In this document: in pieces, positions 20,776 to 23,700 of the stretch
Numbering within the stretch: the first letter of the stretch is position 1
Layout of the letters: the number at the start of each line of letters is the position of its first letter
NCBI RefSeq assembly: GCF_029392895.1
Contig: NZ_CP114200.1
Coordinates: 2,449,001-2,513,000 of the forward strand
Origin: Streptomyces sp. 71268
Lineage (GTDB): Bacteria; Actinomycetota; Actinomycetes; Streptomycetales; Streptomycetaceae
DNA: 64,000 nucleotides
Direction: 5' to 3'
Notes under the pieces: generated by a model
Seen by the model: the letters and a program-made list of their open reading frames with translations, nothing else
What the model was told of the DNA's origin: nothing
Databases searched by the model: none
Translations under genes and position numbers: made by a program

Positions 20776-23700
20776 CTAGGCGGTCGCGGCGCCGGCCACG
20801 AGGGCCTCGACGGGCAGGCGGAGCCAGTAACTGCCGCGCTGGAACGGGTAGGTGGGCAGTTCCACCAGGCGCCCGCCGAGCCCGGCGTAGGACTGCCGCC
20901 AGTCCACCGGCACCCCGGCCGCGTGCAGGTGGGCCAGCGCGGACAGCAGCCCGGACCGGCTGCCGGCCGCGTCCAGGGCATTGGCCGGTAGCACGCCGTC
21001 CGCGACGCCCGCGAGGCCCGTGGTGCCCGTCGTCCAGCCAGCGGCCAGGCCGTCGGGCGCGGGGCCGAGCAGGAGCGAGCCGCCGGCGGCGCGGGAGGGC
21101 GCGGCCAACTCCTTGGCGCCCCAGTTGTGCGCCCAGTGCTCCGGGGTACGGAGCACGTCCGGGGTGACCGGCTCGCCGGTGACGGCGGACAGCAGCGGGA
21201 TGGTGGGCGAACGCAGCTCCAGACCGTCCAGCGTGGCGCGGAGCGCGGCCGTGGCATCAGTGGCGGTGACATCGGCGTCGGTGTCGGTGGCGTCCGGGGC
21301 CTCGTCGGTACGGGCCAGGGCCAGCAGGAGTTCGACCGCGTCCTGCGGGCGCAGCACCTCGGCGGCGTACGCGGCGGCCAGGGCGCCCGGGCCCGCCCCG
21401 ATGACCGAGGCCGGCGGCACGCCCCAGCCCTGGAGCAGCGTGAACAGCGCGCAGCCGACGGCGAAGGAGGCCGCGTGCGCGGTGGTGGGCGAGGGCGGCC
21501 AGGCACTGGTGTCGGTGCGCAGCGCCCAGTCCCGCGCCGAGTGCTCAAGCCTGGTGTCCAGGTGGGCGCAGACGGCGTCGAGCGCGTCGGCGAAGGCCGG
21601 GTAGGCGTCGTACAACTCGCGTACGCCGGGCAGGCCGGTGCCCGTGCCGGGCGGCAGGGCGGGGAAGCCGAACACGGCGGTGCCCTCGGTGGCCGCCGCC
21701 ACGCCCTGGATGACGGTGCCGGAACCGTCGCGCGTCGTGCCGTCGGCCACCAGCCGCGCGAGGCCGGCCAGCAGGCCCGGCCGGTCGTCGGCGAGGACCA
21801 CGGCGCGGTGCTCGAAGACGGCGCGGGAGGCGGCCAGCGACCAGCCGACGTCCGTGGGCGTCAGCTCGGGTTCGTCGGCGAGGTGGGCCCGCAGCCGCTC
21901 CGCCTGGGCCCGCAGGGCGGGCGCGGAGCGGGCGGAGAGCGGGAAGGCCAGCACGCCGGAGGCCGGCGCGACCGGCTGGGACGCGGTGGCCGGTTCGGCG
22001 GGCGGCTCCTCCACGATGATGTGCACCTTGGTGCCGCTGGCGCCGAACGAGGAGACGCCGGCGCGGCGCGGGCGCCCCGTCGCCGGCCACGGCACCGTCT
22101 CGGTCAGCAGCCGCACCGTGCCCGAGGACTGGTCGATGTGCGGCGACGGCTCCTCCGAGTGCAGCGACCTGGGCAGCACCCCGTGCCGCATGGCCAGCAC
22201 CGTCTTGATCAGGCCGAGCACGCCGGATGCGGCCTGCGGGTGGCCGGTGTTGGACTTGTACGAGCCCAGCCACAGCGGCTGCTCCGGGTCGCGGCCCTCG
22301 CCGTAGGTGGTCAGCAGCGCCTGGGCCTCGATCGGGTCGCCGAGCGGCGTTCCCGTGCCGTGGCCCTCGACGGCGTCGACCTGGTGGGCGGTGAGCCCGG
22401 CGTCCGCCAGGGCCTGGCGGATGACGCGCTGCTGGGACGAGCCGTTGGGCGCGCCGAGGCCGTTGCTGACGCCGTTGTGGTTGACGGCGGAGCCACGGAT
22501 GACGGCGAGCACCCGGTGGCCGCTGGCGCGGGCCGTGGACAGCTTCTCGACGAGCAGCATGCCCGCGCCCTCGCCCCAGCCGGTGCCGTCGGCGGCGGCC
22601 GAGAAGGACTTGCAGCGGCCGTCGGGCGCGGCGCCGACGCCCATGTCGGGCGAGACGGCGGGGTTGGCCAGCACCGAGGCGCCGCCGGCCAGGGCCATCA
22701 CGCACTCGCCCTGCCGCACCGCCTGGGCGGCCAGGTGCAGCGCGACCGAGGAGGACGAGCAGCCGGTGTCCACGGTCAGGACGGGGCCCTCGAAGCCGAA
22801 GGTGTAGGCGATGCGGCCGGTGGCCACGGCCGGTGAGATGCCTCCGCTGAGGAAGGAGCGCGCCTCGTCGGGGACCTGTTGCAGGCCGGTCCAGTAGCCC
22901 TGCGAGAAGGTGCCGGCGAAGACGCCGACCCGGCTGCCGCGCAGCGTGTGCGGGGAGACCCCGGCGCGCTCGAACGCCTCCCAGGACATCTCCAGGAGCA
23001 GCCGGTGCTGCGGGTCCATGGCGATGGCCTCGGGCTCGCTGATGCCGAAGAACTCCGCGTCGAAGGAGGCCGCTTCGGCGAGGAACCCGCCCTCGCGCAC
23101 GTACCGCATGCCCGGCACGTCCACGCCGGCGCCCTCCAGGGCCGCCACGTCCCAGCCACGGTCGGTGGGCAGCGGGCCGACGGCGTCGCGCTCGTCGGCG
23201 AGCAGTTGCCAGAGCTGTTCGGGGGTCTCCACTCCCCCGGGCGCCCGGCAGGCCATGCCGACGATGACGATCGGGTCGTCGTCCGGTGTGGTCGTCGCCT
23301 CAACCGCCGTGTGCGTGGCAGGCGTTGCCGCCTCGTCGGTGGTGTCGGTGAGGTGGCCGACGAGTTGTTCGCGTAGCTCACGGGCGAGCGCGGTGGGCGT
23401 CGGGTGGTCGAAGACGACGGTGGCGGGCAGCGTGAGCCCGGTGGCCGTCCCGATGCGGTTGCGCAGCTCGACCGAGGTCAGCGAGTCGAAGCCGAGGTCG
23501 CGGAAGGGCTTGCCGGGCTCCACGCCGTCCGGGCTGGCGTGCCCGAGGACGGCGGCGACGTGGCCGCGTACGAGGTCGAGCGCGACCCGGTCGCGGTCGG
23601 AGGCGGGGGCGGCGGCCAGCGTCTGGGCGAACGCGCCGTGCTCGCCGTCGGCCACGGCGCCGTGCCCGGTGCCGGTGGCGGGACCGGAGTCGGCGCTCAG

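Follow-up and report, generated by a model that had tools for sequence, protein, structure and literature searches.

CalA3, of the calcimycin pathway, is a chain-release PKS module without an ACP, composed of an active KS and of AT, DH and KR domains that are dead (PMC10006239; this and the other papers below are cited from excerpts of their text). In vitro, its KS forms an amide with 3-hydroxyanthranilate, and hydrolysis of the chain is a by-product (PMC10006239). Amidation activity was lost in five active-site mutants, including C197A and H332A, whose hydrolysis product rose 3.38- to 4.86-fold (PMC10006239); as these mutants hydrolyse more, CalA3, in so far as the excerpts describe it, does not prove hydrolysis through an acyl-cysteine and is a weak precedent for it. 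In monensin biosynthesis, MonKSX serves as a transferase after the last ACP, passing the chain to MonACPX (PMC3943991), and forms part of a KSX-ACPX-TE set in which MonCII releases the chain (PMC3943991, PMC4147253). According to these excerpts, CalA3 is the closest demonstrated release module and MonKSX is a chain transferase.

The salinomycin PKS has been described as lacking a conventional off-loading enzyme (PMC4648038), and the final release of its chain was called unknown in 2014 (PMC4515104); no later settlement was found in the open literature, and subscription or later papers may hold one. The published zincophorin (zin) cluster comprises seven PKS genes, a transporter, two regulators, the hydrolase ZinH, the histidine kinase ZinI and ZinJ, and its ZinG is without a TE (PMC6301713). 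Zincophorin is colinear with 12 modules, loading included, and ZinH was proposed as the releasing enzyme (PMC6301713). No description of a KS fused to a half acyltransferase (AT0) at the end of a PKS protein was seen in the excerpts of the zincophorin cluster paper (PMC6301713) or of the open literature on related systems.

The window, a stretch of 64,000 nucleotides from Streptomyces sp. 71268, encodes a PKS whose last protein, A7, ends in such a fused KS-AT0 (Table 1). An earlier note made from the DNA letters had assigned Ser1552 to the last ACP and Cys1793, His1926 and His1966 to a KS that follows it, and each of these residues was found where it had been placed. The cysteine lies in DTGCSSSS and the histidines in EGHGTGT and KSNTGHPQ; Lys1961 is kept as well, and the same Cys/His/Lys/His set is intact in all five fused terminal KSs aligned. 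The AT-like domain was correctly described as lacking its catalytic serine, with GAGPGA at the position of GHSxGE, and the segment with the catalytic His is also gone, being absent from all eight KS-AT0 proteins aligned and present in the three working ATs aligned. We take the missing segment to be the AT small subdomain, which bears that His. Pfam Acyl_transf_1 matches the A7 AT0 over positions 16-117 of 319 only, at 25.7-26.5 bits, below the cut-off of 32.7. As the note also had it, A7 finishes without an ACP or a thioesterase; its stop falls 20 residues past the LPTYPFQ motif, and the ortholog in a second Streptomyces genome (G031) ends likewise. A terminal module without an ACP, with the Cys, both His and the Lys of its KS kept and the catalytic residues of its AT lost, has the anatomy of an ACP-less release module. 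The KS had further been called divergent: GCSSSS, NTGHPQ and the replacement of the FSRQRGL loop (by a segment of 13 residues) were confirmed, but DTGC alone is not rare among Streptomyces KSs. An AlphaFold2 model of the KS-AT0 of A7 (mean pLDDT 63.2, pTM 0.47) was too poor for use.

Table 1. Features of the window and its flanks; coordinates are those of the window unless marked as genome positions.
Feature	Coordinates	Strand	Remarks
A7, last PKS protein	20776..28137	minus	2453 aa; N-terminal docking-KS-AT-KR-ACP (module 10), then KS-AT0
Module 10 ACP	23368..23625	minus	Ser1552 codon 23482-23484; PF00550 55.9 bits, above cut-off
Terminal KS	22000..23283	minus	motifs, alignment; PF00109 274 bits
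Terminal KS codons	Cys1793 22759-22761; His1926 22360-22362; His1966 22240-22242	minus	
AT0, half acyltransferase	20830..21717	minus	Ser motif lost, catalytic-His segment deleted (alignment, Pfam)
A7 C-terminal tail	20779..20829	minus	no ACP, no TE
A6	28163..39496	minus	modules 8 (KR) and 9 (DH-ER-KR); motifs
A5	39839..44959	minus	module 7 (KR); motifs
A4	45032..55024	minus	modules 5 and 6 (KR); motifs
A3 ORF	55061..63385	minus	module 4 (DH-ER-KR); motifs; true start downstream of listed ORF start
A2, 3' part	61684..64000	minus	modules 1-3; gene continues to genome 2526715
A1, loading protein			KSQ-AT-ACP; outside window, upstream of A2
MonB/SalBIII-family gene	genome 2530615-2531016		outside window, just beyond A1; LuxR-type regulator next
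DUF5988 small protein	20482..20724	minus	gene after A7; PF19450 2.5e-24; 50.6% identical to S. griseus protein
Phosphotransferase-like gene	19542-20417		between DUF5988 and transporter
MMPL transporter ORF	16833..19355	plus	71.5% identical to S. griseus cluster MMPL gene (inferred zinT)
TetR-type regulator	16292..17008	minus	57.1% identical to S. griseus cluster TetR-type gene

A frameshift or sequencing error at 20776, hiding a downstream ACP-TE, had been raised as an objection to this anatomy, and no sign of one was seen: the G031 ortholog of A7 stops at the identical place and is followed by a DUF5988 ORF as in the window, and no ACP or TE was found by eye in three frames past the stop (approximately 0.36 kb in the window and 0.42 kb in G031). 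Compared between the window and G031, the terminal KS and the module-10 KS have the same dN/dS, 0.060; AT0 has 0.29 and the active AT 0.125. The further pair of G376 and S. violaceus gives, over few sites, 0.124 for a portion of the KS and a value of 0.55 for AT0. The terminal KS is constrained about as tightly as a working KS and the AT remnant is more loosely constrained, yet retained. Because its dN/dS against the G031 ortholog equals that of a working upstream KS, the terminal KS does not look vestigial, an alternative that the earlier note had allowed for. That the whole module is a relic or an assembly artefact would agree with the relaxed constraint on AT0 in both pairs, but the low KS values in the same two pairs and the identical stop in G031 speak against it, as does the fact that S. 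griseus, G376, S. violaceus and G308 have this architecture too, and we consider it very improbable. The KS-AT0 end of A7 is real and apparently functional.

Judged by motifs, the window cluster consists of a KSQ-AT-ACP loading unit and 10 extension modules, or 11 modules in all. The domain order and AT motifs predict a propionate-started C23-backbone acid resembling zincophorin minus its first reducing module. A search for stand-alone ACP and TE genes near the cluster, of the kind suggested by the earlier note, found none: no discrete ACP was detected in or near it, and scans run without a positive control gave no thioesterase motif in the 20.8 kb below and the 20.7 kb above the window PKS genes or in the 17 kb below the G031 ortholog. 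PF00975 has its closest match at 2649479, approximately 0.12 Mb past the cluster, where a 1017-aa frame contains a carrier domain as well, and stand-alone thioesterases are present elsewhere in the genome. No amine-supply genes were recognised among the ORFs scanned. The DUF5988 protein was rejected as a dedicated partner of KS-AT0: 66 of 150 Streptomyces genomes encode it, and at the 30 loci listed no PKS gene was recognised by eye beside it; no paper on DUF5988 was found in the open literature. The gene between it and the transporter resembles viomycin/capreomycin phosphotransferases (363.9 bits against the viomycin model, cut-off 400) and was not seen at the corresponding place in the S. 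griseus cluster discussed below. The MonB/LasB/SalBIII-family protein matches LasB (7.5e-46) and SalBIII (1.3e-26) among PDB entries; it keeps Asp38, has, by eye, Ser at the position of SalBIII Asp104, as does the S. griseus protein, and has an Asp near the position of LasB Glu65.

The zincophorin type of terminus was represented by S. griseus NCTC13033, in which a PKS protein ends ACP-KS(DTGCSSSA)-AT0 and is followed by genes for a thioesterase, DUF5988, MMPL and TetR proteins and a KSQ PKS protein, the last with one extra module that has the spacing of a DH-ER-KR set and in which no ER motif matched the pattern. Another contig of this genome carries PKS genes and a LuxR-type regulator, and next to them a MonB-family gene that is 65% identical where it matches. 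The zin locus was identified by gene content across the two contigs rather than by accession; that content fits the published zin cluster, and we infer that the contigs belong to one zincophorin cluster. Its ZinG has, like A7, a fused ACP-KS-AT0 end, with 74.0% identity in the terminal KS and 44.9% in AT0, and the conserved neighbors include ZinJ-like (63.6%) and LAL (47.5%) proteins together with the DUF5988, MMPL and TetR proteins at the identities given in Table 1. The two clusters share KSQ loading, the ZinJ-like enzyme, the MMPL, TetR and LAL regulator genes and the terminal KS-AT0. They differ in that the S. griseus thioesterase gene (inferred zinH) adjoins the PKS end, whereas the window flanks are without a thioesterase motif, and in that the zincophorin type has 12 modules and the window cluster 11. 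On gene content, the window cluster is classed as zincophorin-type; it is one module shorter, and its examined flanks showed no thioesterase gene.

As zincophorin matches 12 modules, the terminal KS should add no carbon. This bears on the suggestion in the earlier note of a split module with its ACP elsewhere, under which the KS would condense once more with an extender held on an ACP in trans. The KS has kept the catalytic Cys, Lys and both His that such a step would call for; however, the AT is dead, no discrete ACP lies nearby, and a zincophorin-type cluster has a like terminus, yet zincophorin, as described in the excerpts (PMC6301713), fits its 12 modules with no extra unit. A further extension is accordingly given hardly any weight.

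The salinomycin type was represented by G308, with SalAIX of S. albus itself outside the comparison. The last PKS protein of G308 contains one extension module, reads KR-ACP-KS(DTGCSSSG)-AT0 and stops, and its terminal KS is 60.7% identical to that of the window. One MonB-family protein encoded nearby scores 207 bits against SalBIII, to which it is approximately 76% identical as counted from the alignment. A FAD enzyme, a methyltransferase-family protein and a thioesterase are supported by Pfam, and two more MonB-like ORFs, a P450-like ORF and a ferredoxin-like ORF were recognised from translations. What sets G308 apart from the window cluster is an epoxidase-like gene, additional MonB-like genes, a P450-like gene and, approximately 7 kb from the PKS end, a thioesterase gene.

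The KS-AT0 end is not unique to the window cluster. Looking for other PKS proteins that end in KS-AT0, another check that had been proposed, recovered it in G031 and as the terminus of the last PKS protein in the zincophorin-type cluster of S. griseus, the salinomycin-type cluster of G308 and clusters of a third type in G376 and S. violaceus. The fused type occurs in at least 4 of 392 Streptomyces genomes (G000, G031, G376 and G308), a lower bound given that five candidates were scored per genome; a second search of the genus (333 genomes) drew on the same set and added no new genomes. Among 394 actinomycete genomes, three matches were obtained at E 1e-30, a threshold that would miss G308, namely the window's genome, G725 and, as a partial match, G460. 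A plasmid search matched one of 72,556 records, with 43% of the query covered. The DNA pattern for DTGC was present in 39 of the 392 Streptomyces genomes, and of 30 such loci, 28 were ordinary KSs (DTGCSSSL/M), one was not a KS and one, in G308, belonged to the fused KS-AT0 family. In the related-locus search, S. violaceus NRRL B-2867 alone among the 79 loci listed combined DTGCSSS, the absence of an AT serine motif and the end of the ORF; four other listed matches had no AT motif but read DTACSSSL.

Several candidates were set aside. The PKS protein of G725 (L162:2830-9678) ends KS-AT0-ACP-TE, with a dead AT but with carrier and thioesterase present; the G179 and G060 matches have active AT motifs; and the G324 locus gave no readable ORF. 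In G155 (L037:5503-8577) and G120 (L038:1-3081), KS-AT0 proteins have Tyr in place of the second KS His (KSNIGYPR), and the G155 gene overlaps a downstream thioesterase gene by 4 bases. A 464-aa protein adjoins the KS-AT0 gene in G376 (L036:10195-11589) and S. violaceus (L090:8632-10026), and G120 has a similar protein (L038:5783-7246). By its motifs the 464-aa protein looks like an adenylate-forming ligase, but the G376 and G120 copies had no Pfam match at 1e-5.

Phylogeny of the terminal KS, likewise proposed in the earlier note, was run as two quick searches (50 and 53 KS domains) in which most inner branches are weak; the S. griseus KS was added in the second tree, and the S. violaceus L090 sequence, which contains runs of N, was excluded from both. 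The terminal KSs of the window, G031, G376, G308 and S. griseus form one clade with SH-aLRT support of 100, and two discrete KSX-like proteins group apart from it (99). In neither tree does the KS of CalA3 join the fused clade, but its branch is long and its position therefore unsure. The five fused KSs all have Pro1769, Gly1792, Val1807 and Ala2033, which are rare in the other 48 rows of the alignment, and it is these residues and the changed loop, not DTGC, that mark the clade in the sequences aligned.

The earlier note knew of no described system matching this layout, but CalA3 (PMC10006239), MonKSX (PMC3943991) and the zincophorin- and salinomycin-type termini do match it, to the extent that the excerpts describe the first two. 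Like the A7 end, CalA3 is an ACP-less terminal module that has kept the Cys/His/His/Lys of its KS and whose AT is dead, and its KS is 54.1% identical to that of the window. It differs in being a discrete protein with a docking domain, dead DH and KR domains and a retained AT small subdomain, whereas the A7 end is fused and has half an AT, and its amidation residue Leu437 is replaced by Phe2031 in the window KS. MonKSX was represented by KSX-like proteins of the window's genome and of G297, which resemble the A7 end in pairing a KS with a dead half-AT and fall into a separate group in the trees. Proteins of the MonKSX kind are discrete and paired with an ACP; the A7 KS-AT0 is fused to the module 10 ACP, and is neither a discrete protein with its own docking domain nor accompanied by a discrete ACPX in its cluster.

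Elsewhere in the same genome (150001-190000) lies a second polyether-type cluster with an epoxidase-like gene and, by eye, two MonB-like ORFs, in which a discrete KS-AT0 protein with a KR-like remnant (184151-188350) is followed by a discrete ACP (188526-188882). These two genes look like a KSX/ACPX set, in contrast to the fused, ACP-less end of A7. Were A7 to operate in the MonKSX manner, its KS would load the chain onto a discrete, trans-acting ACP for ring formation, and a thioesterase would then release the product. The KSX-ACPX-TE set published for monensin (PMC3943991, PMC4147253; excerpts), the apparent set just described and the half-AT anatomy common to both kinds lend this some credence, but the window cluster has no discrete ACP within it or nearby, the scanned flanks show no thioesterase motif, and the fused KS lies apart from the two KSX-like proteins in the trees; such a transfer is unlikely.

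The earlier note had proposed a transfer or release role for a KS able to accept the chain, and of its readings this one fits best, the split and vestigial modules being unsupported. We give about an even chance to the proposal that the KS-AT0 of A7, joined to the last extension module, works as a chain-release station without an ACP, most likely a hydrolytic one. From the anatomy, its conservation and the selection that acts on it, we infer that the finished beta-hydroxyacyl chain would be transacylated from ACP10 to Cys1793 and released there. With no extender loaded, no C-C bond would form at the KS; water would attack, a free carboxylic acid would result, and the half-AT0 may act as a structural lid. 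Before release, while the chain is still bound to the ACP or the KS, a trans-acting MonB/SalBIII-family enzyme would close the C3-C7 pyran. Hydrolysis is favored because zincophorin and salinomycin are free acids, because no amine-supply genes were recognised and because the window flanks are without the thioesterase found in S. griseus and G308. The mutants of CalA3 weaken the precedent, and for this reason our estimate for hydrolytic release was lowered to even from slightly better than that.

Other points run counter to release by this KS. One of the genome's stand-alone thioesterases could do the work in trans, ZinH was proposed as the releasing enzyme of zincophorin (PMC6301713), and the KS may serve pyran formation only by holding the chain. 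In another reading, the KS is a station that parks the chain for cyclization by the MonB/SalBIII-family enzyme and leaves release to a thioesterase in trans. A gene of this family does accompany the KS-AT0 end in the window, S. griseus and G308 clusters, and the related cyclase Cyc11 resides in the terminal 11th module of indanomycin (PMC6830212, PMC6301713; excerpts). However, the G376 and S. violaceus stretches, of which one side was read, showed no gene of this family; the window and S. griseus proteins have, by eye, Ser at the position of SalBIII Asp104; and SalBIII takes the released metabolite in vitro, if slowly (PMC4648038), so that, on the excerpted account, a KS-bound substrate is not required. 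A purely holding role seems rather unlikely. Hydrolytic release at the terminal KS may be extended to the whole clade, with some hesitation: the fused KSs could constitute a self-contained off-loading hydrolase with a truncated-AT lid, and so an unrecognised release enzyme of zincophorin- and salinomycin-type polyethers.

As far as these sequences tell, the fused lineage of putative carrier-free exit modules is known in kind and not in form. If annotation treats KS-AT0 as one of the extension modules, the predicted chain would be a unit too long. The window cluster, with no thioesterase motif in the flanks scanned, offers a natural test case for KS-AT0 as a hydrolase. If the proposal is true, KS-based release would have a second lineage beside CalA3, and the release of salinomycin, unknown in 2014 according to the excerpts (PMC4515104), would gain one directly testable candidate, the terminal KS-AT0.
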